Source: Heliocidaris erythrogramma
Taxonomy: Eukaryota > Echinodermata > Echinoidea > Camarodonta > Echinometridae
Reading direction: 5' to 3'
DNA length: 64,000 bases
NCBI GenBank assembly: GCA_025617745.1
Contig: CM046858.1
Location: 36,907,119 to 36,971,118 of the forward strand
The position numbers and the translations under genes were made by a program. The notes beneath the pieces were generated by a model. It was not told where the DNA came from and searched no databases. It saw only the letters and a program-made list of their open reading frames with translations. Of the stretch, positions 2,347 through 39,282 are shown in pieces; position 1 is the stretch's first letter, and each line of letters begins with the position of its first letter.

Positions 2347-3300
2347 TTATGTATGTCGTCCGCTGATTCTATACACTTCAGGATTTCTGTAAGAAAACAC
2401 GAATGCCATGCTGCTCACACCATGGGCTATGATCCACACTGTCAGTACTGATATGAACCATGTTTCCACAGGAGAAGCATTCATTTCATCCCCTTTCGTG
2501 GATGAATCTGTTATGATAATGTTACTCCGGCGTCCCAAGCGGAGTTGAATTTGTCATTTCTGATTTAGGAGTATTTCCGGTAATATTCACACTGATGGTT
2601 TTACATTACCTCCCATCTGTTGCATTGCCTAATGGACTTCTGTCTGAAACCAATGGGGTATCATAAAAACCTGTCTTGTCTTAAATCCAAACTGAACGTG
2701 CTGTTATGTATAATGCGCCTTGAGCACTCCACAGAGTGGATTAGGCGCTATAAGTTACATTTATTATTATTATTATTATTATTCTTTTCGTGGAATCAAC
2801 GGGTAGAAAACTACCACTGACATTGTTCCACTATGTAAATGAAACATTGAAATATTGCATTATTATTCTCTAAGAATGTGTTGGCTTACTGGTGAAAATT
2901 GTTTGTCGTTTACATATTCTCATTCGAAATAACCGATTTGGGGCGATAGTTCTATAACGAGAAACGTCTCTACATAGGATCAACATATAATTTAATTCGT
3001 TATATATGAGATTGAATTGAACGTGAAAGTTCTAATATTTGTAGCCGTGTGTTCCTAAAGCACGCGATTTCCCGCAGCTCGCTCTCCGTCTATCATTTGC
3101 ACCCATTGAGAAGACATATGTATTTTTTTGTTGCAAATAGTGAAGCAAGTGGGTTCTGTATATTCAACAGTAAACTTCAGTATGAAAATTGTACAGAGGT
3201 GTTGTGCACCGCTATAAATTGCGATGACGTGTTTCCCCGTATCATTACATTCGAAATGAACAAATACGATGTGCAAAATACATCCCTCAAAAACTGCTTT
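2347..3300 (-). pseudogene. Relic of an Ig-like membrane receptor, tail-less type
   Basis: Two pieces on the minus strand match the receptor family of this window. The piece at 3055-3276 contains CNDTGKHV, QHLCTIFILKFTVE and SSQWVQM, the counterparts of NDSGKHVV, QSLCTIVILNLTVE and MSCQWVQ in the intact genes. The piece at 2347-2538 is a membrane helix (WFISVLTVWIIAHGVSSMAF) followed by FSYR and a stop within about 14 residues. The helix and its short end resemble the relics at 10217 and 36963, so this was probably a copy without a signalling tail. About 500 bp between the pieces is unrecognisable and includes a retroposon tail. Signal peptide and start are missing. Confidence 0.65.
2690..2783 (+). 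repeat. 3' end of a non-LTR retroposon/SINE with (ATT)n tail
   Basis: The words gcgccttgagcactccac and ggattaggcgctataa are followed by a (TTA)n run at 2760-2783. This imperfect-palindrome-plus-ATT tail is a common 3' terminus of short retroposons in marine invertebrates. It lies inside the receptor relic and so was inserted after that copy decayed or helped break it. No tRNA head is visible upstream. Confidence 0.5.
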
Positions 3301-3344
3301 TTTTCATGCATATTTCCTTAAATTAGTTTAGTGAGTTTTTACAG

Positions 3345-3656
3345 GTACACCTATTATCTAGTATTCGTCTGTTGGTCATTGGAGACTTTAATATTCATGT
3401 AGATAATGGTGATAATCCTGAATCTAGGTCTTTCAATGATCTTCTTGAGTCACTGTGTTGTGCCCAACATGTTCAATTCTGTACTCACATACATGGTCAT
3501 AAACTGGATTTGATTATTTCCCGTCAATCTGATAATGTTATCATTGGCCAACCATGGCGTACTGATTCATTGATATCTGATCATTTTCCTGTGAATTGTT
3601 TGCTTAATTCAAGCAAACCACCTTTATATGTTTATAAGCAAAGAATATTATGATAC
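3345..3656 (+). mobile_element. LINE endonuclease fragment
   Basis: The frame from 3372 reads VIGDFNIHVDNGD, then FNDLLESL, HGHKLDLIISR and SDHFPVNCLL. This is the C-terminal half of an apurinic-type endonuclease of CR1/L2/Jockey-class LINEs: GDFN is the metal- and phosphate-binding strand, and SDH carries the catalytic Asp-His pair. No reverse transcriptase follows, so it is a short fragment about 310 bp long. Its orientation (plus) is opposite to the receptor genes. Confidence 0.75.
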
Positions 3657-4384
3657 AAAAGCAGCACATTTTATAGTCTCATCAATACTTTCTGTTCCTT
3701 TAGTAATGCTCATTAAACAATTCTTTCTCACTATAACATCTAATAGTCAGGTCTGTATAGCCCATATTTTTTGAGTTCTGGGGACAGAGTTTACAAGGAC
3801 CAAACTTTGCATATCTACTTGGTAGGACAAAAGCTTCACTTTTTTTGCACATTAGACCTATTAAATTAAACCACATCTGGATGCAAAATTAAGCTAATTT
3901 ATGCAAATTAAATCCATTAAATAAATACTACATTGAGAATATAAAAACCAAAGTGCTTGGAAATGTACCAAATTTTCCATAACAAATCTATTATTGTGCC
4001 TATATCTTTATTTTCTTCCACAGGACCCATTGACTAAGCTCACATCTTAATTTTATGCAAATTTATGCAAATTTATGGAATTATTTCCTTATGTACTGGC
4101 AATATATTTCACTATTTCCACAGGACCCAGCAAATTATCTTTATTCCAGTTTATGTCAATTTATGGAAATTTTATGAATATATTAATGGAATTCCATTGA
4201 TGTCATACCTAATAGATGGCAGTAGAGCTTTAAAATGTACTTAACTTTCTCCTAATGTTATAGCTTCATATGCCTCAGCAGTCCACCAACTCATAATACA
4301 TCTACATGTAATGTTATGAAGGATTCTGCGGATTATATGCTTTTATGATTATGATTATCAAGTATCCTTATTTATTTCTGACAT
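3657..4384. other. AT-rich intergenic stretch
   Basis: No gene is seen. There are repeated short words of the type tttatgcaaatttatg at 4050-4180, and a segment at 3675-3750 resembles 1436-1500. Confidence 0.5.
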
Positions 4385-4389
4385 TGTTA

Positions 4390-5048
4390 AGAACGCAGTC
4401 GGGGGCGTTAAAGATTATATTGATAACGCTCTGTCGTCTACCAAATCTCAGGTTTTGGAGTCGGCGAGAGAATCTGCCAAAGCTGCCAGTTCATTCAAAT
4501 TTAAAGGCAATCGCATTCAGTTTGAATTCAACGTTAACATTAAAGAGCAGGTGGAAACTGCTGTGGCCAAAATAGAGAAAGGTGATACCGCTGCCGCTAC
4601 GTCTAGCCTTAAATCGGCATTAGATGACATAAAAACCAGGAATAAACATATAAAACTTGCTGATAAAAACGAGAGTTGGAAAGTGGTAGACGAATATAAA
4701 GCCGAGGAACTGGCTGACAATGCGGAAGATGAAAAGCGGATTAAAGCGGCGGTCAAAGCCGTGGCTTCTAAAAAGCCGAGCAAAGCGTTTAAGAAAGGTC
4801 AATTCAGAAATGCCCCGTACCAAATTCCATCTGGGAGTAGGCGTACAGATGCCTATCCTAACTTGGATTCTAATTTTCGTGGCCATTTTCAACAAAATAG
4901 ATACCAGTTTACTAGCAGCCGTGCAGGTAGTTCCAGAAGACTGCCAAAATCAACCGACATCTGTTTCAGATGCGGGGTCAGGGGACATTGGCAAAACTCA
5001 TGTACAGCCCAGTACAGAAGTTTTCAAGCTGATAAACAAACCCAGTAG
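4390..5048 (+). other. gag-like region of the Ngaro-like element
   Basis: A lysine- and alanine-rich coiled N-terminal part (about residues 1-110) is followed by a serine/arginine-rich stretch. A retroviral-type zinc knuckle, CFRCGVRGHWQNSC (C-x2-C-x4-H-x4-C), lies near the end. Such knuckles bind nucleic acid in the particle-forming protein of retroelements. The 5' boundary of the protein is not visible. Confidence 0.75.
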
Positions 5049-5413
5049 TTCAGCTGAATATGCAGGTAAATATAATTTGCAATTCTGATTATTGTAAGGT
5101 GGCCGTATTGTTGGCAGTAGTGTCAGAATAATACGAGGTAATTAGAATGAACCCGTTCACGCGTGATAAATCGACAGGTTGTTCTTTGACATAACGTTGT
5201 GTTCGAGCAAGATTCGAACACCTGTTGTGTGCAATTTCGCATATCTCCTGTATGTGTATGAATGCAGTGGTCATGACTGAAAGATTATGTTCATTGCGGT
5301 CATCAGACCGGCAACACTGTAAACACGGTTTTTCAAGATGTCAGCCCACATAAGAAAAAGTGTGTGATCAACGATGATCGCAAGTTGTAATTAATGTTAT
5401 ATTTATTTCTGCG

Positions 5414-7527
5414 TTGATTTGTGTAGCTATTAGCAATGGCAGTCTGTCACCAGAGGGCGGTTCGTCTAGCACAATGGGAATTTTTTCAGCCGGATCTGGA
5501 AGAGGCTCGGTCCAGTTTAGAACGGAGAGACAGATGGATATATCTGAATACGGGTACGATTTTGATTTCTATTTGAATAACTATTTTGACTATGAGCAAG
5601 GCAATTCAGAGCCTATTGTGCGGGGGAGGATGAAGGCTAACCTGAATTTTTGGAGAAATATTGGAACCCCGGATGATATACTTAAAGTAATTGAGTTTGG
5701 ATATCCAATTCCATTTTTTTCTACGCCTGAGGCGGCAATTTTTAATAACAATGCGTCGGCACTTGATAACACAGAATTTGTTTCCGAAGCTGTTAAAGAT
5801 TTATTATCCAAGAAATTGATTATGGAATCTTCAGTTCGTCCTGAAATTGTGAATCTGTTAACAGTTTCTGTTCAGAGATCGGGCAAGAAACGGCTTATTT
5901 TGGATCTTCGATACGTAAATCACCACATTTGGAAAACCAAGATACAATTTGAAGACTGGTCAGTTGCGCTTCAGTATTTTCGGAAGGATTTTTACATGTT
6001 TTCATTTGACCTGAAGTCAGGTTATCATCACATTGACATTTTGCCTGACCATTGTAAATATTTAAGTTTTGCATGGGATTTCGGTAGTGGTACTCGTTAT
6101 TTTTCTTTTCAAGTTCTTCCTTTCGGGTTGAGCCCTGCTCCCTTTATTTTCACCAAGTGTTTAAGGCCGTTAGTAAAACACTGGAGGAGCAAAGGTTTCT
6201 TTATTGTTGTGTATTTAGATGACGGATGGGGCATTGCACCATCTTTTTCTGATTGTGATAAGATTTCACAAATTGTGAAAGATGATCTGATAAAGGCTGG
6301 GTTAGTTCCCAATGTTGAGAAATCCGTATGGATCCCGTCGCAAGAAATTGACTGGCTCGGGATATCGTGGAACACGGGGAAAGGAGTAATGAGGTGACTG
6401 ACCGGAGGGTAGGAACTATCCTCGCGTGTATAGATGAACTTAAGGGGAAATTGCCTTATTTGACAGCCCGGCAGTTGGCTGGTTTTGTAGGGAGGATTAT
6501 ATCCCTGATACCTGTTTCTGGTCATATTGCTCAGCTCAGAACAAAATTTTCGTCCATGGCAATTTGTGATCAACACCATTGGGATAAGGTGTTCAGGGTG
6601 CCAGGTGACAGTCATATTATAGAAGAATTGTTCTTTTGGAAAAAGAACTTAAGAGCCATAAATAACAGATATGTATTTGATTATGCTTTACCACAGGTTT
6701 GATTGTATTCTGATGCCAGTCATAGTGGCTGTGGGGCGTGGACTAGAGATATGGATGACAATGTCATTAAGTTCAACCAGAGCTGGACAGAATCTGAGAT
6801 AGATAAGAGTTCCACGTGGAGAGAGCTCCGAGGTGTAGAGCTAGCTTTGAGAGCTTTTGCTCCAAGATTGCAAGGAAAATGTGTAAAAGTTTTCTCTGAC
6901 AATAAAGGTGTTGAGGCGGTGATAAAGAAAGGAAGCATGAAAATGGATTTGCACATTATGAGCATTGACATACCTACGTTTTGTAGAGAAAATAATATAG
7001 AATTGCACGTGCAATGGGTTCCGAGGGACGAGAATGTCCTGGCGGATTCTCTGAGTAGAGAGGTAGACTTTGACGATTGGGGAGTTTCTCAAACCTTTTT
7101 CGATTTCATGGACTCCATGTGGGGTCCACATTCTGTTGATCGGTTTGCGGATGATCGCAATAGGAAGTTAAGTACGTTTAATTCCAAGTATTGGTGCCCT
7201 AGTACCAGCCAGGTAGATGCGTTTGCGGTATCTTGGCAAGGAGAGAACAATTGGTTAGTGCCACCGATATATCTTGTAGGGCAAGCTGTCAAACACGTGA
7301 AAGCCTGCAGAGCTCAAGCCACTCTTGTTATCCCGTATTGGCCTTCAGCTGCCTTCTGGCCAGTTTTATTTTCTAGTGGCAGTATATATACTGATATGAT
7401 AGATAGGGTGATCAGATTCTCTAACCCTTCCTTCATATATGTTAAAGGAAGGAACAAGAACTCTGTTTTTGGTTCGGACAGATTCACCAGTGAAGTACTT
7501 TGTGTACGACTGAATGGTAGACTGTAA
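5414..7527 (+). other. Reverse transcriptase and RNase H region of the Ngaro-like element
   Basis: Motifs appear in the expected order: FGYPIPFF near the start (the DIRS/Ngaro GYxIPF block), LILDLRYVNHHIW, FDLKSGYHHIDI, LPFGLSPAPFIF and the catalytic VVYLDDGWG. An RNase H region follows from about 6700, with SDASHSGCGAW, ELRGVELAL, VFSDNKGVEAV and ENVLADSLSR carrying the acidic active-site residues. The part beyond resembles the DNA-binding extension seen after RNase H in this group. This is a fossil region, with breaks present. Confidence 0.85.
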
Positions 7528-7549
7528 GGTGATTTTGAGGAGCTATTTA

Positions 7550-7790
7550 AAGAAAGAAAATTCTGGAGGCTCACTGGAGCTATGAAGAGATGAACGGGAC
7601 GCACTGGTGTCCTATAATTAGATTAATATTGGCTCACTGGAGCATTTATGAGATGTGACTCACTGGAGTCGATTGGATATGGAGTTGAATATATGTATGA
7701 ATTTAGAGTGGGAGATTGGGAGTCTCTATATAGGCTCGGCAGATTTTGTGACTAGAGGTAGTCAGTTGATAATAAACTCACTGAAGTTTA
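7550..7790 (+). repeat. Short ctcactggag repeats between RNase H and recombinase
   Basis: The decamer ctcactggag or a one-base variant occurs four times at irregular spacing (about 7568, 7632, 7660 and 7778) in the non-coding gap before the recombinase. It may be part of the internal regulatory sequence of the element, or chance local duplication. Confidence 0.4.
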
Positions 7791-7837
7791 ATGAAGTGTA
7801 ATGTTATTTAACCTTCAATTATGTTAATCAATGGAGG

Positions 7838-8830
7838 TTGGATGTGCGTATTATTGTTTGTTTCAGAGAGGAAAAGTTTCAAAAGACTCTGGGAAATGTG
7901 ATGGACGCTTCAAGAGCTGAAAGCACAGTTAAGAAGTATAAGAATGCTGTCGCAAGCTGGGAAGTATGGTGTAGACTGAACAAAGTAAATACTAAGTTAG
8001 CTGATCATGAAGATATTGCAAGGTATTTTGTTTGGATGTTCAATGACAATGCTCCATATAGCAGAATACAAACTGCATTTTTCGCTTTGAAATGGCACTT
8101 TAACTGTTGCCCGAAGACGTGTTTAAGGAATCCATGTGCAACGCGTTTTTTACAACTTTTGTTGGATGGCCTGAAACGGTTGTTATCAAGGCCAGCTGTG
8201 AATAAAAAGGAACCTATCACAGCTGACATTTTAGTTGCTATTGTCAATAGGTTTGACGAAGATAATGTTAAAGATCTTAGACTTTGTTCTATGATGCTCA
8301 TTGCGTATGCGGGGTTTTTGCGATATGATGAGCTTTCTAGTTTGAGGCTTTGTGACCTAGATATGTGTGATTCACATATGAAAATATTCTTGGAAAAGAG
8401 TAAAACAGACCAGTACAGGGAGGGCGCATGGATCATCATTGGAGCAACCGGGAAAAGTACATGCCCTGTTATGATGCTTAAAAGATACATTGATTGTGCT
8501 GCGTTTGAAGACTTGAAATCGTCTCAATATTTGTTTTCATCGATCACCATGCTTAAGTCTCAAAACAAATTTGTTATTCGTCCAAACAAATTAACATATT
8601 CCAGGTGTAGAGAGTTGATCAAAGAAGCTTTGCAAGAGATTGGATTAGACGCAAGTAAATTTGGTGTACATAGCTTGCGTTCAGGAGGCGCCTCAGCAGC
8701 TGCTGCCTTCGGTGTACCTGACAGGTTGTTTAAACGTCATGGACGGTGGAAGTCCGATTCTTCCAAAGACAGATATGTGAAAGAGACTATGCACAATAAA
8801 CTCTTAGTGTCTACGAATTTAGGAATTTAA
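7838..8830 (+). other. Tyrosine recombinase of the Ngaro-like element
   Basis: An N-terminal SAM-like core-binding half (RAESTVKKYKNAVASWEVWC) is followed by a catalytic half with AGFLRYDELSSLRLCDL (first catalytic Arg), VHSLRSGGASAAAAFGV (His-x-x-Arg) and HGRWKSDSSKDRYVKE (terminal His/Trp and the nucleophilic Tyr). This enzyme type integrates a circular DNA intermediate without target duplication. This part reads openly over about 330 residues. Confidence 0.85.
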
Positions 8831-9889: not shown

Positions 9890-10216
9890 ATTCCAGATCC
9901 TGAAACGTTGGTGCCGTACGTATAATTATGTAATTACACATTATATTTTCATCATTTTAAATCTGATGACAAATGGATTAAAAAAGATAATAGGAATGAT
10001 AATTTTAATCCGTCATAAGAACATTTACGATGGGTAATTTGAGTTCATATTAAACCTGTTCATACGATTCGATCCGTTACAAAATTAGACATTTTACCAA
10101 CAGGACAATGCGCATTACATTATTGAAAGAATGAAATTCAACCCCTCATATGACCTCTTGCTGTCTTTTGAAATTAAATTGTGCAGATTCTAAAAGAGGA
10201 AGAGGATTTAACCGCA
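9890..10216 (-). repeat. 3' flank shared with the relic at 36963
   Basis: This DNA just downstream (minus sense) of the relic at 10217 matches 36610-36962. Shared words include cataagaacatttacgat, gatccgtta and cttgctgtc. The match continues into the membrane-helix coding parts of both relics, so each was copied together with its 3' flank. The rest of 9629-9889 holds nothing recognisable. Confidence 0.7.
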
Positions 10217-11300
10217 TCACATATAGGCATTTTTGTAAGAGTATACGAATGCTAAAATGCTAACAGCATGGGCTAATGTCGAGAGGACTAACACCCATAA
10301 GAGCGAACTACTTAGTATGTATATCAATATATTATCATTAGGGCATTCTGGTGACACAATTCTTGCTAAACAAATTTGAGGAAGTGCATTGTTCGATGTG
10401 GCATTGTTCAAAGAAATTTTAGTGCCTTCTTCATTTGATTTAGCAATCTCCGCTGTATTTTCACAATTTAAAGTAACATCGAATTTGTTTGACCCTTCAA
10501 GTTTTGGTGAAATGGAGATATTGCATACCTGGTCTTCTTGTAATTGTACAAGCATAATGTCACCTACTATCATTTGGAAAAGATCTTTATTCTCCAAACT
10601 AATAAAATAAATATGCTTGATATCCGATAAAGAAATCTCAGCTAAATGATTTAGTGGAAGGAAATAACTACCAGTAGTGTACCAACATGATATGACTTTT
10701 GTCTGTTTTATTTCAGACCATTCGAAAACAGCAGATTGGTTTCGGTTTTTTTCAATAGAACGAGCGTGTATTGTAGGAAAAGCACATGTTTCCTTCTTGA
10801 CCCCCTGTCATTGGAAACAGCACATTCGCTCGGCATGATCTTTTCGTCTAATATGTTTTCAAGATCAACGTACGTATGCACTGAATTTATTCGTTAGACT
10901 ACAATCATCGTTGTAGTTCGTTTCAGGCGTTTCATATTCATACAGCACCTGATTTCCAGCTACAAGTCGCGCATGATCCCCCACGTTCACTTGCACCCAT
11001 TGACAAGACATCTGTAATTTTCCGCTTTCTCTGATGAACATAGAACAAATAGGTCATGTACCTTCAACGGTTAAATTCACGATTACGATTATACAAAGTG
11101 ATTGTGACCCCTGCTGAAGCTTGACGACATGCTGTCCTGAATCGTTTTGTTCAGTGAACGGAATAGACATTTAAAAGTAATTGGTGTTGTTGTTCTGACT
11201 TAGGAAATAACGAGCAGGATTGGGATACGCGTTGGTATTACATTCCAAAGAACGGTTGTTTAGTTTTTTTCACGTACTAACTGTCCTACTAACTGGACAA
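10217..11300 (-). pseudogene. Tail-less Ig-like membrane receptor, decayed copy
   Basis: This is a close relative of the gene at 30610-32514. The minus strand carries counterparts of the YEYET, DRARLVAGNQ, MSCQWVQ, SLCTIVI and NDSGQHVVK segments between 10920 and 11170, then WYTTGSYFLPLNH and LSDIKHIYFIS near 10600-10680. An open stretch continues to a membrane helix (LLWVLVLSTLAHAVSILAFV) and stops after YSYKNAYM. The cytoplasmic part is only about 8 residues, with no tyrosine motifs. The signal peptide and first ~80 residues are missing, and several frame changes lie between 10740 and 11290, so it is a pseudogene. Ectodomain and helix are contiguous, showing that the tail-less form was also intronless. 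Confidence 0.8.
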
Positions 11301-22758: not shown

Positions 22759-22792
<34 letters not shown>

Positions 22793-23905: not shown

Positions 23906-24376
23906 GAGACCAAATGGTCATTAGACTATATGAAAATTAGACCAAATGATAAGTAGCCTAACTGGTTTTTAGACGAATTGGATATTAGACCATATGACAG
24001 TTAGACTAAATGATAAGTAGCCCAACTGGTTATTAGACTAAATGGAATTGGACCAAATGATAGGTAGACCATATGGTATTAGCCAAAGTAGGTGTAGCCC
24101 AAATGGATATGAGACCATGTGGTTTGTAGACAAAATGACTGTTAGACTATTTGGAAATAGACGAAGTGAAAATTAGCCGAAGTGAAAATTAGCCCAAATG
24201 GGTTTTAGACTAAATGGGGTTAGCCAAACTGTGTATTAGACGAATTGGTTATTAGGCCAAATGGAAATTAGACGAAATGGTAAGTAGACAAACTGGTTGT
24301 AGACAAAATGAAGTTAGACCACGTGGAGTTCGACGAACTGATGATTAGACCAAGTGGTGGTAGACCAAGCGATAGT
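23906..24376 (+). repeat. Degenerate 16-18-bp tandem array (ttagaccaaatgg)
   Basis: About 27 units follow one another. Each is built as a tag/tta start, 'gac' or 'gcc', then 'aaatgg', 'aactgg' or 'aagtgg', followed by 2-5 variable bases. The half-units agac(c/t/g)aaatgg keep register while the spacer varies. The array lies next to the reverse-transcriptase fragment, where RNase H would be expected in the LTR element. Confidence 0.75.
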
Positions 24377-24506
24377 GTACCCTGCTAAGCTGGTGTCCTA
24401 TAGAAGTCGACTTTTGCAAAGCCAACAAAGCACTTTTGGGGTTTTGCCTTGAGGTTTGACTCCCTCAATCTTGACATCAGTGTACGCAAAGCTTCCATAG
24501 TTGATC

Positions 24507-25274
24507 CTAGGTTGGTGTGTGCACTAAGATGTCGTCAATGAAATTGTCGACGCATTCAAGACCACGGAGCACTGTTGTCATCAACCGAATGAAGCTAGCC
24601 GGTGCATTGATCAATCCGAATGACATGGTCTTAAATTGATAGAGTCCATCTGGGTTAACCAAGGCAGTCATTTGCTTTGCATGCTCTGTTAGCGGCACCT
24701 GCCAATACCCCTAGCTTGGTGAGGTCGATTTTTGTGAAGAAGTTATCATCTGTGAGTTTAGAAAATATCTCCTCCTGGTCCGGTATGGGCTCTGCATCTG
24801 GAACAGTGACAGAATTGATCTTTCTGAAATCACAGCAAAGCCTATTACTGCCATCTTTTTTACTTATCAAGACAATAGGAGAAGCGTAAGGAGAGCAGGA
24901 CGGTTCAGTTACACCAAGATCCATCATGTCCCTCACCTCATCCTTGACTATTTGCCTCTTAGCATGGGGCAATGGATAGGGACGACTTTCACTGGCAGGT
25001 CAGGGATGAGCTGTATATCATGATATCCTGCCGTAGTAATACCTGGGACATCAGTGAGTACGTCATCGACCTCCTGAAGTAAGGAGGAAACTTGTCTACG
25101 CTGCTCGTCTGATAGCTCCTTGGATACCTGAACGTCGGCACATGTTTGTGTTCTTTGCAAACTCGGTAACTGCAGGAGAGACTCTGAAGACGCTCTGTTC
25201 TCTAAAGTTATCCTTGTCACTGGCGGTATTTCCAACATCGGAGTCATCTTCGTCTTCAATAACTGATGTCGCAA
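24507..25274 (-). other. Reverse transcriptase region of the Gmr1-like element
   Basis: The motifs LSDEQRRQVSSLLQEVDDVL, GVTEPSCSPYASPIVLISKK, LCCDFRKIN, KTMSFGLINAPASF and NFIDDILVHT mark a Ty3-type reverse transcriptase (FIDDI is the catalytic box). It follows the integrase in transcription order. No RNase H is visible downstream. Breaks are present. Confidence 0.8.
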
Positions 25275-26724
25275 CCAAATCCACTACTGCCCCAGTAGTT
25301 GCCTGATTCGGCTCCTCAGTTTCTCGCCGTAAGTACTGCTTTAAGAGATTGGCATGGAAGGTGGTAACTCTCTTACCTAGATCAACTTTGTAATCTAGCG
25401 GTCCTTGTGTCTGCACAATGCGGAATGGGCCCTTCCAGTGCATGAGGAGTTTGTTATGATCGGTCGGAAGAAGAACCAGTACCTCGTCACCAACTTTGAA
25501 TGAGCGCTTCTTTGCCTTCCTGTTGTAGCTTTTCCTGTATTTCTCATGCGAATTGTGAAGTTCCCGTTGTGCTATCTCACATGTCTTTTCCAACTTTTCC
25601 TTCAGGTCCAGAACAAACTGGTACGTAGACTTGGTTTCTGGAAGCTCAATGTTCTTGGTCCATAACTCACGCAGAATCATCAGTGGTCCCCTGACCACCC
25701 GTCCGTACAAGAGCTCAAAAGGAGCAAAGCCGGTGCTATCCCGGGGCGTCTCCCGGTATGCAAACAACAGAGAATCGATGTAGCGATCCCAGTCTTTGGG
25801 GCGCTCTTCCCACATTTTTACTAACATCCTCTTCAAGGTACCATTGAACTTCTCGACAAGTCCGTTACATTGAGGATGGCACGGGGTGGTCATGACATGA
25901 GGTAAAGAAAGAAGTCGGCATACCTCCTTCATAACACCCGAGGTAAACTGTGATCCTCTGTCCGTGAGCATTACTTTCGGAAAGCCAACTCTAGAGTAGA
26001 TGCTTATCAATGCTTCAGCCACTGTGGCAGTATCAATATTTCTAAGGGGCACCGCCTCAGGATAACGCGTAGCGTAGTCAACTAAAGTGAGAATATACCG
26101 ATTTCCCTTTGAAGAAATGGATGTGATAGGACCCACCAGATCCACTGCTACACGGTGAAAGGGCTCGTCGATTACTGGTGTTGACCCGAGGGGCACCTTC
26201 GTCACCTTACCCTTGGGAAAAGAACGCTGGCAGGAATCGCATGACCTGCAGAATAACTTTACGTTGTGATGTAACCCGGGCCAGAAAAACTTTTCCAAAA
26301 TCCTATCAGCTGTCTTACTTGCTCCCAGATGTCCACCAATGACCGACTCATGTGCCAACTTTAGAACCTGATTTATGAGAGGCTGGGGAACTATTAACTG
26401 ACTATTGAGGTCAACACCTGCCCTTGAATCTTGGAATTCGCGGTAGAGAACACCATTCAACTTCTTGAATTGAGACTTATTACCATTACGGCTCACCTTG
26501 ACATCATCACTAGCAGCTCGTTGTCTTATCTTGTCTAAGGTCGGGTCGCTTTCCTGTGCTTGTCGAAAACCATGTGGAGTCACCTCTGTCACTTGTCCAG
26601 GAACCTTCAGACCTTTTTTTCTCCCTGTTCTGTTGTCGAGTCTCCACCGCCAGTGCACATAGTGTGGTCCCTCGCTCTGCTGGTTTCCAATCCCTGTCGG
26701 GATCGCTTGCATTCCTGACTCCAT
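25096..26724 (-). other. Integrase region of the Gmr1-like element
   Basis: An H2C2 zinc finger (HESVIGGHLGASKTAD ... CRSCDSC) is followed by the catalytic core: VDLVGPI (first Asp), LTDRGSQF (second Asp) and HPQCNGLVEKFNGTLKRML (Glu). A GPF/Y-type module (WKGPFRIVQTQGPLDYKVDL) lies near the end. The integrase lies 5' of reverse transcriptase, supporting the Gmr1 group. Confidence 0.85.
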
Positions 26725-26729
26725 CTATG

Positions 26730-28121
26730 TTTCCTAAAATCAAAGGATAGATTAGGTTACTAACACAAAGAACTTCCAATTCCCCTGTAAAGTAAGGCGT
26801 GTCTACATTGATCCGCGCCAGCGGAAATCTCCTAATCGTCATATCTATCAGTAGGCACTGTCGTTGCTCCCCTGTCATCTGTCCGGGTTTTACCAACTCT
26901 TCTTTCACTAGAGCGGCCGTGCATCCACTGTCTCGAAGGACATCTACTGGAACCCATTAACAAGACCTCGGACCACTGGCATTGAACGCACTGACTTAGC
27001 CCCGCACACCGCACTCACCACAGGTAAGACTCGCCCCCGAGTGTCGTCAGTATAGACTGCCCCATCACATGAGAAACATGAATCAATTAATAAACATGCT
27101 GCCTCACCTATATCCTTAATGAAGTCATTCTCCTCTGAGTTATGTCCTGTTAACACTCCCCTCGGCTCCGCCTGCGTCTCCACATCAGAGTCTGTGGTCC
27201 AAGCTCTCTGTGAGGCTGTCCTCATGACCCTACTGGCTCTGTCATTTCAACCATGCCGGCAGCAAGCCTCCCCTGCCTCCTTTCGTTGCAATTCCGAGCG
27301 AAATGTCCTTTATTGCCGCAGATGTAACGCCCATCTTTCCTTGGACGACTGCCTTGATTGTCCTTGGACAATGACTTACTTGCCTCTGGTGCTCCTGCTA
27401 CTCTAGAAGGACGAAAATCAGAACGTGAATTATCCTTCCTATCGATTATTGGAGGTTTATGACTTACAGTTTGCAACTGCCATCCCGACCGAGCCTCTAT
27501 GAAACGATCGGCTACCTCTGATAATTTCTTTAAAGTTCTCTGGTTTATTCTTTCTTATGAACATCGCCATGTCCTTCAAACAGCTAGCATAAAACTGTTC
27601 AGCAAGTATAATCTCAATCAGGTTTTCAAAGGACTGGTCATAACCGGCTAATGTCAACCATTTTCTTAGATAAACTCGCATCCTGTAAATGAATTGTCCC
27701 GCACTCTCCCCGGGGCCAGGCTTTGCTAAACGCAGTTTTTTCCTATATTATTCGCTGGTGATATCATATCGTTTCAATAATGCAGATTTGAGTGTATCAT
27801 AATTTAGAGCTTCAGTATCACTGAGTCTGCTGTAAGTATCTAATGCTAACACCCCTGCGCAGTAGCATAGCGTTCAAACCTACTGAGGTAAGTATCTATG
27901 TTATCCCTAACTTCATCAAATGTCGGCAGCTTCGGCGCGCGTACATGCGATCTGTTTTCGCTTACTGTCTCATCACCTCTCTCTCTTCTAGAACGCTCTA
28001 ACTCCAACCGCAGCTTAACCAACTCTTGTTCTTCTTTGACTCTGTCACGCTCCAGTGCACTCTCTTCCCTTGCTCTCGCCTGCTCACCGTCGACAAACAT
28101 TCGTGACTCACTTCCACTCAA
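26730..28121 (-). other. gag and protease region of the Gmr1-like element
   Basis: The gag start carries a charged coiled segment (EEQELVKLRLELERSRRERG), then KLPTFDEVRDNIDTYLSRFE, typical of animal Ty3-type gag. A zinc knuckle CGNKGHFARNC lies at about 27310-27345. Protease-like sequence is expected between the knuckle and the integrase (26730-27225), but its active-site motif was not confidently seen. Several interruptions are present. Confidence 0.7.
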
Positions 28122-28512
28122 GCCTAGGGATTGCCCAATTTTTCATAAGTTTTTCAATTTCCATTATGATATCAAAACCCAAATTAATATCTCGGCAGGA
28201 AAATCACTTACCACAGCTCTTGCTTATATGCTAAGTTTCAATCAGATCGTATGCCCTGCCCAGCACTTTTACCTCTTCAATCCTTTCTGAAACGACACTC
28301 TGATATCCTAAGCAAAAAATAAACTATCAATAGAAAATCGTGTTATTTCATCATACATACTCCATATTTGCAAGGAAATAATTCACTTAAGTTTAACAGC
28401 TTAATGAATATACGGGAAATGTCCCTGATTGATGTTACAGCAAAGTATCATCACTGCCAGTAGATAACATGAATACAATTTAAAGGTCCCTTCGTGGTCG
28501 CCAAAATGTCAG

Positions 28513-28996
28513 TACTGGCACTCTCTAACAGAATAAAAGTTTCACAAATTTGTTTTAAGTTGAATGGAAGAATATGTAATACTTCCGTTTATTGAATTAA
28601 TCAAATTCTTGATCAACCATCAGTTATATTTTGTATCAATAAAGCAACTACTAATATAAATCTCAGCAGAAGTTTATGTTTTGTGTTTGCTTTGTTTTGT
28701 TTTCGTTAATACAGCAGAACAAAATTAACAATACATACAAGGAATAGATAAATCAAGTTCCATTCGGTGGTATTTTTCAATCTGAAATAAACGGGCCGAG
28801 TGTTCCTCGAAGAATATCTGTCCATAAACCAACTATGGGCTAAACCGATGCCAGCCTCGTAGTCGTCGTGACGTAACCTTGAGCCTTTCACGGCGGACTT
28901 GTCCGCCTTGCGTAGTATGCCCTTGTCCCGTCCTTCAGCTGATGGGCTCAAAACGTCCTGTTTGCCACGCTGGTGCATAATGACGTCATTTCCGGT
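28513..28996 (-). repeat. 5' LTR
   Basis: Partner of 21718-22200. Directly inside it (minus sense) is a primer-site-like sequence beginning ttggcgaccacgaaggga; the matching tRNA cannot be named without a search. Confidence 0.85.
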
Positions 28997-30609: not shown

Positions 30610-32514
30610 TCATTCTGAGCAGGATTTTTTTTTCTTAAAATCCTCCCCAGGAGGCCTTGGGTCATCATAATCCGACTCCAAAGACGTCATTTCCTTAGTC
30701 TTTTGGCTCATGTCGGGTTTAGCGTACAACGAATCTGGATTTGTTGTAGGTTCCGGGTTCCTATTAATCAGTGGAACCTCTGTGTTTGGATCAATTGATA
30801 ACGGAGATGATTCTTTCATGTCAATTGGATCATAATAAAAACCATCATGATCACTGTCTATTGGAAGGGAACGTACGAAAGATTTGGAACGCGAATCTTT
30901 GGTACCATTTGTTGTCGAAGTGCCTTCGACATCATCGACTGAACAATATGTACTATCATGGTTTGATACTGAAGAAACGACTGCTCTCGCATTGTGCCTT
31001 CCGTTGTTTTTCGTACCAAAGACAATATCATTTGTAAGTAGCTTGACAGTGTCTTTATCACTAGAACTGCTATGATAATCTTCAGAATTCTTATCAAACG
31101 CTGCCAAATTACGCCGCGATGGGAGGGTTGGAGGCCCGCCTTTTTGATTCCAAAAGAACGACAACGCGTCTACGTTCCTGTCTGGTTGTCGATGTGCGAT
31201 AGGCTGGGGCAGCTCAGTAGCCCTGTCAGGTGTAGGAGGTTGTGTAGATAAGACCGTCATATCTACAGACTCTGCTCCTTCGTTAACCATTCCTGCAGTA
31301 GTAACCGTGGGGATTCCTTCACCTACCTCATCTTTTAAATGGTGTCGCTCTTTTCTGAGAAAGTTTTGGTAATATTTGGCGAAGCAACCACAGATTCTGA
31401 ACGCTAATGCCAATGCTGATAGAACCACTAGTGGATATAGCAATGTATTATTGTTTGGGCAACCTGATGACACATCTGTTCCTAAACAACATTCAAGAAA
31501 TGAATCGTTCGATATGCCATAGCTTAGAGAAATTCCATTGTCTTCCCCATTTGATTTACGTCTCTCCGTTCTATTTTCACAAGTTAAAGTAACAACGCCC
31601 AATATCGTTTGAAAATTATCTTTTTCCTCCACCGAGATAAAAGCGATATGCTTGATATCCGACAAATTAATTTCATCTGAATGATTAAATTGAAGCAGAT
31701 AACCCCCAGTATTGTACCACCATGACGTTACTACCGACTCTTTGATTGCGCAACATTTGAATGCACCATATTGATTTTGATCTTGTATTGCGGGAAACGT
31801 ACATGCTCCATTAGAGATACCCCTCTCGCTGAAAACGCCACACTCACTAGGCATGATCTTTTCGTCATATATGTTTTTAAGATCAACGAAGGCACTGAAT
31901 TTATTCCTTAAATTTAAATCCCCTTTGTTGAACATCAGAGTTGTTTCATATTCATACAGCACCTGATTTCCTGCTACAAGTCGCGCACGATCCCCTACGT
32001 TCAGTTGCACCCATTGACAAGACATCTGTAATCTTGCACTTTCTTTGATGAACATCGCCGAACAAATAGGTACTCTACCTTCAACGGTTAAATTCAGGAT
32101 AACGATTGTACAAAGTGATTGTGGCCCCTGTTGAATCTTGACGACATGCTGTCCAGAATCGTTTTGTTCAGTGAACGTTATAAACATAACAAAATTGGTT
32201 TCGTTCAACTGTCTTAAATTATAACGACCAGGATTGAGAGATGCATCGATAGCACATTCCAAAGAATGGTTGCTTAGTTTTTCACATACTGACTCTCCTT
32301 TTGTCCACACAAGCGACTGAGTATCAACAATCTCATCTTTCAGGTTAAAGCTAAGCGAAATATTCTGTCCATTCACAGCTTGTATTGAATGTTCCTGCTG
32401 CTGGTTACACCATAAAGTAGTATCATCTTCAGAAATAGTCAGTTGGATCAAACATTGCAGAATAAAAAAGAATAAAAACATTTTCCATTCCACAGTTAAG
32501 CTCCTTTGAGACAT
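30610..32514 (-). CDS. Intronless Ig-like single-pass receptor with tyrosine-motif tail (receptor 2)
   Basis: The frame runs 634 residues from the Met at 32514. An in-frame Met eight codons earlier (32538) exists, but MSQRSLTVEWK aligns with MTQYSFALKWK of receptor 1, so the inner start is preferred. Counting from 32538: signal peptide to about 36; C44, W78, NDSGQHVV (126-133) and C143 in module 1; QMSCQW (C174) in module 2; CC262-263 and WW273-274 in module 3; membrane helix about 366-386. The 250-residue tail holds Y531 (STYCSV, fitting the ITIM form SxYxxV), YY568-569 (FYYDP), Y605 (LYAKPDM) and Y624 (DYDDP). The frame ends FKKKKSCSE at a nine-A run (30627-30635 region). Beyond it, another frame resumes family-like sequence (EGLDSSVLSND, LYGN) and then stops, so relative to receptors 1 and 3 the end is shifted and the LYINT motif is lost. 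It may still be functional. Confidence 0.75.
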   Translation of the reverse strand: MSQRSLTVEWKMFLFFFILQCLIQLTISEDDTTLWCNQQQEHSIQAVNGQNISLSFNLKDEIVDTQSLVWTKGESVCEKLSNHSLECAIDASLNPGRYNLRQLNETNFVMFITFTEQNDSGQHVVKIQQGPQSLCTIVILNLTVEGRVPICSAMFIKESARLQMSCQWVQLNVGDRARLVAGNQVLYEYETTLMFNKGDLNLRNKFSAFVDLKNIYDEKIMPSECGVFSERGISNGACTFPAIQDQNQYGAFKCCAIKESVVTSWWYNTGGYLLQFNHSDEINLSDIKHIAFISVEEKDNFQTILGVVTLTCENRTERRKSNGEDNGISLSYGISNDSFLECCLGTDVSSGCPNNNTLLYPLVVLSALALAFRICGCFAKYYQNFLRKERHHLKDEVGEGIPTVTTAGMVNEGAESVDMTVLSTQPPTPDRATELPQPIAHRQPDRNVDALSFFWNQKGGPPTLPSRRNLAAFDKNSEDYHSSSSDKDTVKLLTNDIVFGTKNNGRHNARAVVSSVSNHDSTYCSVDDVEGTSTTNGTKDSRSKSFVRSLPIDSDHDGFYYDPIDMKESSPLSIDPNTEVPLINRNPEPTTNPDSLYAKPDMSQKTKEMTSLESDYDDPRPPGEDFKKKKSCSE

Positions 32515-32803
32515 ATCGATCCTCTGTAATACTGCCATTTTCCTTTGAGCAAACTTTGTTTTACCAAGAAATCCTAGTTACCTAATGATGAGGCTCTTGT
32601 TATATTATCTCATAAAGAAACTGGATATTGAGTGGCATAGTAGCCTAATAACATTATAGGATAATGAAAGAAGAGACAAAATGCTCGGACTAAAGGGGAT
32701 GGGCTTCGTGAAGTGTTTCTGCACTTTCCCGGATCACCATGATCATGTTGAGAACTTACAAATAGCTATTGACCAAAGCTTTCTGATTAACCACGGAAGC
32801 GAC

Positions 32804-32825: not shown

Positions 32826-34045
32826 CTTAGAAAGCAAAACTAATTTCTTTGTTTGGTTCACTTTCAAAGGGAATGATGATACACGATCATGCATTATGGA
32901 GAATCCGAGAGCTACTTCAGACATTTCAAATTTGTTTTCACAGTCATTATGTTTACTCCCCAGCTTTTTTTTAAACGAGCAATGTATTGATGATTGATGC
33001 ATTCCTCTCTGACAATTACAAGAAAATTTGATTTATTACTTTCTATCCTAAAAGAACCTTATCATTTAAGAGGATGATGTCGATAATCGTTACAATAGGA
33101 ATGTGGTTGACATCGTTCATATCTAATTAAGTACTTTCGGTTTTATACTTTGCATTATTATCCCATCGTCGCCTTTGAATCTAACCCTTTTCAGACAGCG
33201 TGTTATTTCTTTATACGATGTAATTGTAATTTCTAGTGTAATAAAATTCCCTCCTTTAATGATAAAGAATCAGTCCAGCTGTGACAAAACCAGTTTATTA
33301 ACGAATGGAAAAGGTTGTGTTTGGAGGAAAGCAATATGAGTATGATTTGCCTCGAATCCCCTACCTCATGATCTACAGTCCTTTGACTTATCCACTAGGC
33401 CACAACACCTCTACATTATGATATCAATAAACCTTAAATATTTCTTTAGCGATGACGCTTATTATACGGCGAAAAATGAATTTCCTGTAATATGTCTTAT
33501 GTATAAATCTATGGCAAAGTTTTGTGTCTCTTTGTTAATATTATCTTGTGAATATATCTTGTGAAGAAACGCTTGACTGATTTATACTGATGTAAATAAT
33601 AATTCACTCTGCTTTTATTTATTTTTTTTCTTTTCGTTCCATAATAATGTATTTATCCCGTTTTGATATATACACGTATATATAATATACTGAATTCCAC
33701 TCGAAATCTCTTGGATTTCACCAATCTTATTTGTAATGTTAGATCAACTGTATATAATGTACATATGATTTGCTTAGTAGTTTTCTCCCTCTCAAACAAT
33801 TACTTTCATTAAACGAAAATCATTTTTTTAAACATATAATATTGTATCATTATTCGATCAGGGGGCCTACATCACACAAGCTAAGCTTTTTAGTAGATCC
33901 CTCCACATATCCTTTTGTCATCTTTCTATGTCATATCCATGTATTCTCTGTTTTGCAGTGTTTGTAACTTGTACATATTGTTGTAATTTCATTGTAAATG
34001 TGGGATGTGAATAAAATAAAATCAAATTAAAAAATCAAATCTTTC
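32826..34045. other. Intergenic stretch
   Basis: AT-rich, with no gene recognised. It contains a tRNA-like segment listed separately. The stretch 33960-34040 ends in an A-rich aaataaaataaaat run that could be a retroposon tail. Confidence 0.45.
33340..33415 (-). repeat. Degenerate tRNA-like segment (SINE head or tRNA pseudogene)
   Basis: The minus strand shows a box-A-like tggcctagtggataag, then ggactgtagatc, identical to the anticodon arm of animal tRNA-Tyr (GTA), then a box-B-like ggggattcgaggc. Acceptor ends do not pair well, so it is not a working tRNA gene. Confidence 0.5.
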
Positions 34046-34644
34046 AAATCCCTAAACAAAACAAACAGGAGACTTTTGTTTCGATGCGCTTTTCCAAAGT
34101 AAAACGATTGTTGGGGTTTAAATCAAAGCCTGACCAGGTGTATTTATATACAATTCACCACCACTTGCCAATTCATCGGTAGGACGTGGCACACTGTTGC
34201 CATACACATGGTAAACATCATCGCTATTCAGGACAGATGGATGTAGGTCATCCCCCTGAACGAGAATGCTTTGGAAAAACTCATCTCCTGGAGGCCGTGG
34301 GTCATCATAATCCGACTCCACTGATTAAAGACAGGTCTTTGCGACCCGAAATCCCCATCCTGTTGAGGTGTTTGAGCTATTGAGGTCGTCATTGCTAGCT
34401 GCCCTCCATCATGTTCTTCCGTCGCCGTTAAACTTCTCTGAGGATCATGTATCGAATCCCTTCTCACAAGATATTGATGTTTACCAGGGATATTGTAGTA
34501 GCAATTTGTAATGCAAGAACCAATGAAGAAAGCAACCGCTGTAGCTGCTATTGCGGCCACTGATATCACAATACCAAAAAAAAAAAGGGGGGGGGGCATT
34601 AGCCTATCTTCATGTATATATGTGCATTTGAAATCATTTTTCAC
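34046..34644 (-). pseudogene. Receptor 3-like relic: membrane helix joined to tail end
   Basis: The minus strand encodes IVISVAAIAATAVAFFIGSC (helix), YYNIPGKHQYLVRRDSIHD, then GSQRPVFNQ. It then passes in another frame to ESDYDDPRPPGDEFFQS, VYHVYGNSVP and GELYINTPGQALI with a stop at 34118. All segments have near-identical counterparts in 37189-39282. The ectodomain and the tail centre, including LYAKPDM, are missing. The 3' flank (34046-34117) also matches 37125-37188 (atccctaaacaaaacaaac, tttaaatcaaagcctgac), so gene end and flank were duplicated together. Confidence 0.8.
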
Positions 34645-34859
34645 AGACTGTGTGAACTTAGCTTATGTTTCTTCCAAAACCACTAGAAATTAATGATGTG
34701 TTAAGTACATCTGAACGTTGCGAATACATCCACGATAAAAAATTACCACAACAGATAACATCGAGGTTCTTTTCAATAATCAAAATCATTATAGAATAAT
34801 TACAGTAAAATAAAAGGAATATATATAATAAAGAAAGTAAATGTGAGAAAAATTACAAT

Positions 34860-34931
34860 GCCCCGACCGGGATTCGAACCCGGGACCCTGGATTACATTG
34901 ATCAGTGCTCTACCAACTGAGCTATCCGGGC
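34860..34931 (-). repeat. tRNA-like unit 1 (tRNA-Thr-like SINE head)
   Basis: The minus strand reads gcccggatagctcagttggt, agagcactg and a good box B (gggttcgaatcccgg), ending tcggggc. Acceptor ends pair only roughly (GCCCGGA/TCGGGGC). The anticodon arm resembles Thr(TGT) but carries an extra base and lacks the invariant T33. A shared non-tRNA tail (attgtaatttttctcac, then atttactttcttta) follows, so a SINE is likelier than a tRNA gene. Confidence 0.6.
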
Positions 34932-35189
34932 TCCCGTCGAAGCAACGTAACAATCTCACATATAGCCCCCCTCTTTCCATCGAGCGTAGGGGGTACATCC
35001 ATACCAATTCCATGCGTACGCTATATAATGGCCTACCAATGAGACAGGTCTTCCCTCTAAAGTCGGGCAAATCAATGCTAACGAATTTCTATAGAGGACA
35101 ATTTGAATTCGTAATTAAATATCATAATTGATAGGATTGAAGTAAATTGAATATATCATAAAGAAAGTAAATGTGAGAAAAATTACAAT

Positions 35190-35260
35190 GCCCCGACCGG
35201 GATTCGAACCCGGGACCCTGGATTACATGACCAGTGCTCTACCAACTGAGCTATCCGGGC
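35190..35260 (-). repeat. tRNA-like unit 2
   Basis: Same head and tail as unit 1, with anticodon arm actggtcatgtaatccag (Thr TGT-like, with A in place of T33). The tail and the flank beyond it (ataaagaaagtaaatgtg) match unit 1. Confidence 0.6.
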
Positions 35261-35267
35261 TCCCGTC

Positions 35268-35320
35268 GAAGAGCACTGGTCATGTAATCCAGGATCCCGG
35301 GTTCGAATCCCGGTTGGGGC
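35268..35320 (+). repeat. tRNA-like unit 3, inverted and 5'-truncated
   Basis: It starts at gaagagcactggtcatgta and continues through box B into the same tail on the plus strand. Units 2 and 3 are head to head, making an inverted repeat whose arms run to about 35155 and 35395. Confidence 0.65.
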
Positions 35321-35508
35321 ATTGTAATTTTTCTCACATTTACTTTCTTTATGATATATCCAATTTACTTCAATCCTATCAATTATGATATTGAATATAT
35401 ATATATATTCGAAAATTCGAATTTTTTCATCGTATACGGACTTTTCATTCCTATTTTGTCTATAACTTTGCAAGTCCGAAGCAGAACTACATTTATGTAT
35501 ATATATAT

Positions 35509-36574: not shown

Positions 36575-36609
36575 TTTGTAGTGATTTTTTGTATTTGTCA
36601 GTTTTACTT

Positions 36610-36962
36610 CAGATCTCGAAACGTCAGTCCCAGTTTATAGGCCTTTATGTTACGATACATTCCTAATATTATTTACATCGTTTAAAAGCTGACCAATAGA
36701 ATACTATGTAGGAATGATAGTGTTAATTCATAATAAGAACATTTACGATTTGCAATTTGAATCCAATTAAACATATCCATGCAGTTTGATCCGTTAAAAA
36801 GGCATACATTTTACTAACAGGAAAACCACCGATGTTTTCAAAGACATGACTGGAAAGGAATGAAATTCCACCACTCGTATGACTTCTTGCTGTCATTTTA
36901 AATTGATTGTGCATCCTTCAGAAGTCTATGTAACGAAATTGATCTAAGTGGATCACATTTGG
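36610..36962 (-). repeat. 3' flank shared with 9890-10216
   Basis: This is the downstream flank of the tail-less relic at 36963, matching that of the relic at 10217. Confidence 0.65.
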
Positions 36963-37045
36963 GCATATTTGTAAGAGTACGCGAATGCTAGAATGCTAAC
37001 AGCATGGGCTAATGTCGAGAGGGCTAACACCCATAAGAGCAATCC
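36963..37045 (-). pseudogene. Stranded membrane-helix end of a tail-less receptor
   Basis: The minus strand reads LLWVLALSTLAHAVSILAFA, then YSYKYAQM and a stop, almost identical to the end of the relic at 10217. No ectodomain is attached; the DNA upstream is the 3' flank of receptor 3. It is best explained as the leftover 3' end of a neighbour replaced by unequal exchange, or as an unused alternative end. Confidence 0.75.
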
Positions 37046-37188
37046 TTCAATGCTTAATCGTTTTTCTTCGTCGTTTTTATCCGTAGGCACAATAATTCTA
37101 TGCGAAAGTTTGTGTCTTAATGTTATATTTCAAATCCCTAAACAAAACAAACCAGAGACATTTGTCTCGATGATCGTTTCCAAATGGT

Positions 37189-39282
37189 TTAAATCAAAGC
37201 CTGACCAGGTGTATTTATATACACTTCACCGCCACTTGCCAATTCATCGGTAGGAAGTGGTACACTGTTGCCATACACATGGTAAACATCATTGCTATTC
37301 AGCACAGATGGATGTAGGCCATCCCCCTGACCGAGAATGCTTTGGAAGAACTCATTTCCTGGAGGCCTTGGGTCATCATAATCCGACTCCACAGTTACCT
37401 TATTCTTGGTTTTCTGGCTCATGTCAGGTTTAGCGTACAGCACCTCGATGTCTGGAGTTGGTAAGCTGGTGGTCATCAAATCATCTCCATATGCCTTCTG
37501 TTGAAGTGATGAGGGAAATAGTTGATTCATGTTGTACGGTGCATGACTGGCTGCACTCCTTTGGATTCCTTCGACATCATCCATTGAACAATACGTACTA
37601 TACGTACTATCTTGGCATGGTGTGCTAGCACTGGCGAAAGGTGCATTTTGTTGTCCAGTGCTTCTAATGCAGGCCCTGGGGCGGCCTCCAGAGTCGGGTT
37701 TGGCCGAAGGCAGGTTTGGTGGTCCACCTAACAACAGTCCAGAACATGACGCCATATTTTCTTTTTCAAAGCAATGCTCCTCTTCGTCCGATGGCCGCTG
37801 ATTAAAGACAGGCCTTTGTGACCCGGTATCCCCACCTTGTTGAGGTTTTTGAGCTGTGAATGTCGTCATTGCTTGAGGTCCTCCATCACCGTCTTCCGTT
37901 GGCCTACAACTACTCTGATTGTCATGCACCGAATTCCTTCTTACAAGGTATTGTTGTTTACCAGGGATATTGTAGTAGCGCTTTGTAATACAAGAACCAA
38001 TGATGAAAGCAAGTCCCGAAGCTGCTAATACGGCCACTGATATCAGGATGCCTTGGTATTTAAACATAATACCACCCGGTGTAGGCTCTGCTTTCGAAAC
38101 TGTCCGAGTTGCCTGAGTAGAGACACAATTTTTGTGCCTCAGACTTCCTGAAGAAGTTCCATCCAGAATATCTGAAGTCGAATCAAGACTTAAAAAATTT
38201 ATCTTGATGATTTTACATTGTTGGCCTTCTCTTGGATTATCGTTTGAAGGATTTGGGTCTGCAACATCTACCAACAACATTGAGCTTTCGTGTTTGGTAT
38301 ATGTTCTAATATTCAACCTTTCCATATTATGAATAGTTATCGTAGAGTTATCTTCCTTTGCACCGCAGAGGAATAGAAAGGTACAATTCACATCATCTAC
38401 AGTGTAATTTCGTCTAGAAGTGATAGGCAATTCATTGATATCCCCGTCATATAGTAGTGGGATGGGTTCACCTTGGTTGGCGACGCAACAATGAAAGTCA
38501 GTATTCCTATTATGTCCATTTTGCATTAGATGCGGTGTCACCTTGGGGAATTCACACACTTCTCTCAATTTCCCTTTCCTATGGGAAACGATACACTTAT
38601 CAGGTACCGTGATTTAATTTAATAGTTTTTCAAGACCAACAAAAACAGTGAATTGATGGGTTATATCATAGGAAACATTAAAATTCAAATCTTTGATCTG
38701 ATGTTCGTAGAGGACATCATTGTCCACTTCAAAGTGTGCTCGATCCCCTTCATTCATCTGCAGCCATTGACAAGACATTTGTAATTTCCCACCATTCTCG
38801 TGCAGAAGTGTTGAACATATCGGTTCTGGAGTTTCGACTGTTACATTCAATATGAGAGCAGTGCAGAGTAACTGCCTACCTTGGTTAATTGTTACAACAT
38901 GATGTCCTGAATCATTCTTCTCAGGGTGATCAATGAACAGCTCAAATGTGATATTATCACTGCCTTGTACCAGTCTGTAGCGGCTTATTTCATAATCTGC
39001 AAAATCGTTATTTTCTAAAGCTCGATCGTGATTTTTAGTCCACACTGACTCTCCCTTTGTCCACACCAGCGTTTGGCCTTCAAGGAACGGATCTTTCAGT
39101 TGAAATCTCGTGGAAATATTTTGCCCGCTCCAAGCGTCCTTTGCTTCGTTGTACACCTTGCCACACCAAAAAGGCTTATTCTCAGACGATGCACCGTACA
39201 AAATACATTGCAAAATCAATGATACTAAGCAAATTTTCTTTATAATATCAGAAGAATGTTGAGACATGTTGGAAGAGTCCAA
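37189..39282 (-). pseudogene. Receptor 3: full-length gene with one in-frame stop
   Basis: The frame spans 698 codons with a single TAA at 38614-38616 (codon 223), and the same frame stays open on both sides. The preferred start is the Met at 39267 (MSQHSS, aligned with the sister genes). Before the stop: signal peptide, FWC, LVWTKGES, KNDSGHHVV, LLCTALILNVTVE and QMSCQWLQ. After it: ITVPDKC, CC without the WW pair seen in receptors 1 and 2, membrane helix ILISVAVLAASGLAFIIGSC, and the longest tail (about 265 residues) with STYCSM, LYAKPDM, DYDDP, VYHVYGN and VYINT. The stop replaces a residue aligned with Glu of DEK in receptor 2 and could be one GAA-to-TAA change. Alternatives are a soluble 217-residue ectodomain product, an allele-specific null or a sequence error. 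The open downstream frame argues for recent loss. Confidence 0.75.

Follow-up and report, generated by a model that had tools for sequence, protein, structure and literature searches.

A same-strand array of at least 64 single-frame transmembrane receptors with an immunoglobulin V-type first module, most likely from a sea urchin

Introduction

What kind of genes are the receptor-like frames that occupy the minus strand of one stretch of contig C6, and what might they recognise? The window analysed here is a stretch of 64,000 bases (C6:36907119-36971118) from a host genome of 1,064,227,859 bases in 26 contigs. It holds three complete or nearly complete genes, R1, R2 and R3, together with the relics of others. 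We find that these loci belong to an array of at least 64 copies. On balance, we favour the reading that the array encodes recognition receptors of an echinoderm: type I proteins, each in a single open reading frame (ORF), with an immunoglobulin (Ig) V-type domain (IgV) and with paired inhibitory and non-inhibitory tails.

Results

The family extends far beyond the window. R1 and R2 queries together detect at least 64 loci in 0.95 Mb (C6:36519174-37469558), all on the minus strand; the R2 query alone detects at least 60 there. The larger figure adds to these 60 the extra R1-query rows, chosen by eye, with rows 37252813 and 37252834 counted as one locus (65 becoming 64). Across the genome, R2 has at least 99 matches and R1 at least 82. 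These counts are lower bounds because each query scored only part of its candidates (69 of 191 and 68 of 185), and the matches miss several of the window relics. The same-strand cluster proposed in the original prediction is thus real and far larger than the window, and the genome-wide count gives the many clustered copies that were expected. A coarser grouping, in which two neighbouring pairs are joined, yields 58 groups (60 when regrouped) at a median spacing of 12.6 kb. By the search program's count, stops occur in 12 of these 58 groups, and 38 are open, without stops, over at least 550 amino acids; this open-frame measure is more generous than an ORF scan, in which copy 37435390 splits into two frames. 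Outside the array, matches lie at C6:38.16 and 38.38 Mb, C9:27.80 Mb, C20:19.24 Mb and C21:48.85-48.86 Mb. The copy at C21:48857817-48859766 matches R1 in three pieces, at 93-97% identity. With the further copies on C9 and C20, this suggests that single copies escape the array.

We extracted 52 loci (294,035 bases, partly overlapping), among which 32 ORFs of at least 540 codons match the family profile, some of them 497-586 amino acids long from the first ATG. This set includes 37064868, which lacks the family start and was kept by hand, and 37045000 and 37073401, which touch the end of the extracted sequence. Excluded from it are R3, with its stop codon, ORFs below the length limit and all other copies that reach an extraction end. 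One open frame covers ectodomain, membrane helix and tail in the extracted copies, and the genes are apparently intronless, although introns in the 5' untranslated region are possible. A signal-peptide core above the threshold for a strong one is found in 25 of the 32, and in every one a hydrophobic helix precedes a stretch of 86-318 residues. Invariant columns of Cys, Trp and Asp run through the 32 copies.

The first module (D1) belongs to the Ig superfamily (IgSF) by sequence profile match, and its fold also classes as V-type. The D1 profile reaches E 1.5e-5 to an Ig domain in the PDB, and 56 of the 60 rows shown are IgSF by name; against V-set it reaches E 7.8e-5 and 23.3 bits, below the curated cut-off of 26. 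In the D1 alignment of 31 rows (37064868 left out), 13 members have Pfam Ig-type matches at E <= 1, three match Receptor_2B4 (best E 0.02), and another single member matches DUF4251 (E 0.0016). D1 profiles also retrieve DPR, DIP and ZIG-8, as well as the IgV domains of TIM, PD-1 and CD48/2B4, to which the likeness is weak and at the level of the fold. The rows of VIA-align are mostly antibody Fabs, and the absence of a family there carries no information. The canonical B-F cysteine pair is absent: columns 64, 66 and 133 hold no Cys in any of the 32 copies, whereas the V domains of TIM and PD-1 have this disulphide. Some accepted V domains, such as that of CD2, also lack the pair; its absence therefore excludes the label “canonical” but not membership of the IgSF. 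Cys44 and Cys143 are conserved across the family, and a disulphide between them, from A strand to G strand, would hold D1 in place of the B-F pair. The AlphaFold model of the R2 ectodomain has a mean predicted local distance difference test score (pLDDT) of 33.

The second and third modules (D2 and D3) give scattered weak profile matches. One of 32 D2 members matches Ig-like_KY (E 0.092), and none matches C1-set at E <= 1. One of 30 D3 members matches Ig_3 (E 0.0042), in an alignment that leaves out L032 and L047, each near-identical to a kept copy; the D3 profile retrieves DIP-theta, a Dpr-interacting protein, at E 1 among its non-Ig rows. Comparison of the D1, D2 and D3 profiles with hhalign found no mutual homology, and Pfam gave no sushi or C2 match in the 32 D2 and 30 D3 members. 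A sushi domain was considered for D2 and ruled out by eye on cysteine spacing. The data therefore support the predicted type I receptors in single frames, Ig-type in their first module and with abundant tyrosines in the tail; of the Ig-like modules predicted throughout, D1 alone is shown to be one.

The tails are rich in tyrosine motifs and differ between types. Among the 32 tails, YDxP occurs in 17 (mean in shuffled tails 1.3), YxN in 24 (11.7), and a loosely defined site like an immunoreceptor tyrosine-based inhibitory motif (ITIM) in 20 (10.8). In the alignment, every non-R1 copy long enough to include the site, 24 in total, conserves the pattern Y-(C/S)-x-(V/L/M)-(D/E)-D (R2 7/7, R3 4/4, B 6/6, A 6/6, E 1/1); in three further copies, one each of R3, B and A, the sequence stops or its frame is lost ahead of the site. 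In type R1 it is found in none of four copies, the fifth being cut short. The R1 tail itself has YAKPDM, YDDP, YGNM and YINT and lacks an ITIM-like site, and that of R2 has the ITIM-like STYCSV, YAKPDM and YDDP. The tail of R3 in the window, which is not among the 32, has STYCSM, with M at +3.

Within the window, all eight minus-strand loci of the original prediction, three (near) full length and five relics, were recovered, and the signatures that it named, NDSG(K/Q/H)H and QMSCQW(V/L)Q, are present in them. R1 (16070-18013, 647 amino acids) is a complete single-ORF receptor gene with signal peptide, V-type domain, modules 2 and 3, membrane helix and tail. R2 (30610-32538, 642 amino acids) is an open single-ORF receptor gene. 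Its V-type D1 lies at 32074-32430, its D2, with QMSCQWVQ and the conserved Cys159, 174, 233 and 246, at 31771-32079, the membrane helix predicted from hydropathy (residues 369-387) at 31378-31434, the STYCSV motif at 30937-30954, and YDDP, an instance of YDxP, at 30658-30669. R2 had been counted among the (near) full-length loci. Its frame is indeed open, but the tail is not complete: DNA homology with the R3 tail extends beyond the R2 stop in another frame, and the terminal YxN segment of the tail has therefore been lost. It is possible that the early stop is a sequencing or assembly slip. R3 (37189-39282) is a near-complete gene with an in-frame TAA at 38614-38616; its first ATG is at 39267, and position 39282 is TTG. 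We also observe a run of A before the early stop of R2 (30610-30660).

The relics, likewise on the minus strand, were counted from six-frame window fragments searched with the family profile, fragments with E >= 0.025 being excluded; counted pieces score E 8e-30 to 8.6e-5. The relic at 2347-3303 has a D1/D2 piece (3004-3303), together with what looks, by eye in the frame print, like a membrane helix near 2400. An R2-type relic at 10205-11287 has several stops and frame changes, and its 3' part, down to 9991, is common to a scrap at 36709-37040, which comprises a membrane helix and 3' part and is recognised instead by its 75% DNA identity to 9991-10304. In the weak tail relic at 19374-20493, one fragment is significant (19723-20157, E 2e-6) and the flanking pieces are not. 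Membrane and tail pieces of an R3-type relic (34039-34662) are 82-88% identical to R3 in DNA.

The array has probably grown by copying blocks. Tree and BLAST classes distinguish types R1, R2, R3, A, B and E, and their neighbourhoods were compared with shuffled orders among 50 extracted C6 loci. Type A copies adjoin one another seven times (1.4 expected; 0 of 5000 shuffles), R2 comes next after R1 six times (1.6 expected; 4 of 5000), and R3 after R2 five times (2.0 expected; 79 of 5000). When the R types alone are shuffled, the last two become 61 and 264 of 5000. The youngest duplicate pairs have a synonymous divergence (dS) of 0.013-0.06. The first ~540 bases of R2 are 92-98% identical to three paralogues, with the remainder at 69-89%. 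A run test of R2 against these partners gave 0, 17 and 125 of 2000, among 21 pairs tried without correction, two pairs besides R2 being also low (3 and 1 of 2000). We read this mosaic identity as a trace of V-module exchange between genes. Relics, very recent duplicates and mosaic exchange bear out the proposed birth and death of copies. The upstream and downstream flanks of 14 of the 32 copies were also compared in search of common promoter or polyA elements; on the upstream side, similarity is confined to copies of one type.

Pairs among R1, R2 and R3 have dS of about 1.2-1.6 and a ratio of nonsynonymous to synonymous divergence (dN/dS) of 0.43-0.51 overall and 0.19-0.33 in D1. Since these ratios are low overall and up to 0.8 locally, the old types are under constraint, unevenly so. 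Ten recent pairs, pooled, give ratios of nonsynonymous to synonymous differences (pN/pS) of 0.70 in D1, 0.64 in D2, 0.85 in D3 and 0.81 in membrane plus tail; D3 does not differ significantly from D1, D2 or tail in these pairs (Fisher p 0.22-0.35). Positive selection in D3 was hinted at by single pairs and disappeared on pooling.

Searches elsewhere yielded five relatives. One sequence searched alone against 5.8 billion proteins gave none, and neither did the viral and prokaryote collections; alignment-based searches found the five, all on ENA contigs. P0004 has an R1-type ectodomain (56% to R1) and P0003 an R2-type tail (43% to R2). Each lies on an ENA contig of 9158 bases, presumably one and the same, and the R1-R2 neighbourhood may therefore predate the split between that lineage and the host. 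The host genome itself carries Bindin on C18 (PF02084, E 2.1e-68), which is found in none of 14 control genomes. Bindin is an echinoid sperm protein that sea stars are also said to have. This marks the host as an echinoderm, most likely a sea urchin, and agrees with the earlier guess of an animal with coelomocytes.

Published systems are compared here from excerpts of the papers cited. The sea urchin genome encodes putative transmembrane receptors with IgV-IgC1 ectodomains, V-type receptors having escaped general computational searches owing to low similarity, and huge sets of TLR, NLR and scavenger receptors (PMC3308324). The excerpts of the literature searched hold no account of this family or of an intronless array.

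Other elements lie around the receptor genes. Between R1 and R2, a long terminal repeat (LTR) element (21714-28996) has 488-base ends that are 98% identical and carries an integrase-like ORF (25096-26724, minus strand). Between the R3-type relic and R3, two tRNA-like copies (34821-35396; Leu-gag and Thr-tgt) lie within repeats, both direct and inverted; they probably belong to a tRNA-derived short interspersed element. ORFs at 4455-8830 (plus strand) resemble, by eye, a retroelement with a reverse transcriptase and a tyrosine-recombinase-like ORF, which we take to be DIRS-like. Long interspersed element-like reverse transcriptase and fragments are seen by eye at 61764-63999 and 41405-45981 (minus strand). 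A 26-base tandem repeat fills 55542-57120 with about 25 register copies. Outside the receptor genes, segment 35712-36587 is duplicated at 50407-51178 (84-88% identical, without long ORFs).

Discussion

Recognition is the likeliest role for this family. The architecture, copy number, array, exchange and motifs are observed, and they suggest ligand binding, signalling and a place in immune cells. D1 would bind a ligand on another cell or on a microbe. Receptor clustering could then lead Src-type kinases to phosphorylate the tail, which would recruit SH2 proteins. Inhibitory phosphatases would be drawn to types with the Y-(C/S)-x-(V/L/M)-(D/E)-D site; R1 receptors, having no ITIM-like site, would act via their YDxP and YxN sites. 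Neighbouring R1, R2 and R3 would be non-inhibitory and inhibitory partners, as in paired receptors. The repertoire would change by tandem duplication, loss and V-module exchange, as traces in the sequence suggest.

Several observations weigh against this account. The best single Ig match of D1 is myomesin, a muscle protein, and the Ig fold is therefore uninformative on immunity. Searched against the PDB up to E 5, the D2 profile matches nothing; Ig sequence matches in D2 and D3 are isolated and weak; the D2 model has pLDDT below 50, and five AlphaFold models range from 36.9 to 57.7. A strict ITIM, (S/I/V/L)xYxx(I/V/L), is present in 14 of the 24 sites (six R2, five B, three A), and the SH2 domains of SHP, Crk/Nck and Grb2 come in as tail partners through general knowledge of such motifs. 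R1-R2 adjacency can be a by-product of segmental duplication. Constraint is patchy, with dN/dS of 0.78 in membrane plus tail between R1 and R2, 0.82 in D3 between R1 and R3, and up to 1.1 in the signal peptide in comparisons among R1, R2 and R3. Among young copies, pN/pS of 0.64-0.85 shows neither positive selection nor strong constraint.

The same evidence bears on other explanations. The family may already have been published as the sea urchin IgV-IgC1 transmembrane receptors, a known immune set; we regard this as possible but doubtful. Those V-type receptors were missed through low similarity (PMC3308324), just as the V-set match of D1 falls below its cut-off, but none of 32 D2 members matches C1-set, the canonical cysteines are missing from D1 in all 32 copies, and an intronless array goes unmentioned in the review passage (PMC3308324). 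Recognition between cells outside immunity, whether neural or developmental adhesion like that of DPR/DIP and clustered protocadherins or cell fusion through KirrelL, seems unlikely to us. DPR, DIP and ZIG-8 are among the D1 matches and kirrelL is without introns in the echinoderms examined (PMC8903837); yet kirrelL, compared by description, is presented there as a single gene with one exon, and variable receptors would better account for the copy number, the relics, the mosaic V domains and the ITIM-like tails.

The locus could also serve allorecognition or gamete recognition, with self molecules of other individuals as ligands. Solitary urchins have, on general grounds, less need of fusion control, and we judge this improbable, although the architecture is like that of Botryllus FcoR and Hydractinia Alr, both tied to allorecognition (PMC12065747, PMC11067881). 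We give very little weight to a retroposed, mostly dead repeat family whose frames are open through youth rather than selection. Such a family would have the intronless frames, the stops in 12 of 58 groups and the young-pair ratios seen here, but not R1, R2 and R3 still long-framed and with low dN/dS at such synonymous distances, nor the invariant Cys, Trp and Asp columns, nor the arrangement of the copies, which follow one another head to tail in a single array and are few outside it.

A more specific proposal follows the recognition account, and we advance it with considerable reserve: an undescribed echinoid paired-receptor complex, a single-strand array of nearly a megabase in which adjacent intronless genes of the non-inhibitory R1 and ITIM-like R2/R3 types are duplicated as cassettes and exchange V domains, perhaps as a self/non-self locus, and which, as part of the same joint claim, would be an independent invertebrate counterpart of vertebrate paired-receptor complexes. 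A clustered IgV receptor array with ITIM-like tails would mean that echinoderms, like tunicates, cnidarians and vertebrates, evolved or retained the paired-receptor design. The locus, its intact copies and their type-specific tails make this model directly testable.

Four known systems offer partial parallels, each compared by description. The IgV-IgC1 receptors (Hibino 2006 and Rast 2006, as cited in PMC3308324) are likewise from sea urchin, V-type and transmembrane, but their C1-set second domain is not seen in the array. Echinoderm KirrelL is also an intronless Ig-domain membrane protein; it is treated as a single gene and acts in skeletogenic cell fusion (PMC8903837), whereas the array has at least 64 loci. 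Hydractinia Alr proteins are clustered, single-pass IgSF members whose mutual identity is low and whose genes include many probable pseudogenes, although they are cnidarian and Alr1 and Alr2 control allorecognition (PMC11067881). The FcoR of the tunicate Botryllus schlosseri form a large clustered type I family with V-type Ig and a long ITIM/tyrosine tail; they combine V, sushi and two C2 Ig domains, a hemITAM (hemi-immunoreceptor tyrosine-based activation motif) and alternative splicing (PMC12065747), while the array genes are single ORFs. Of the FcoR features, a V domain, a membrane helix and ITIM-like sites are present in the array.

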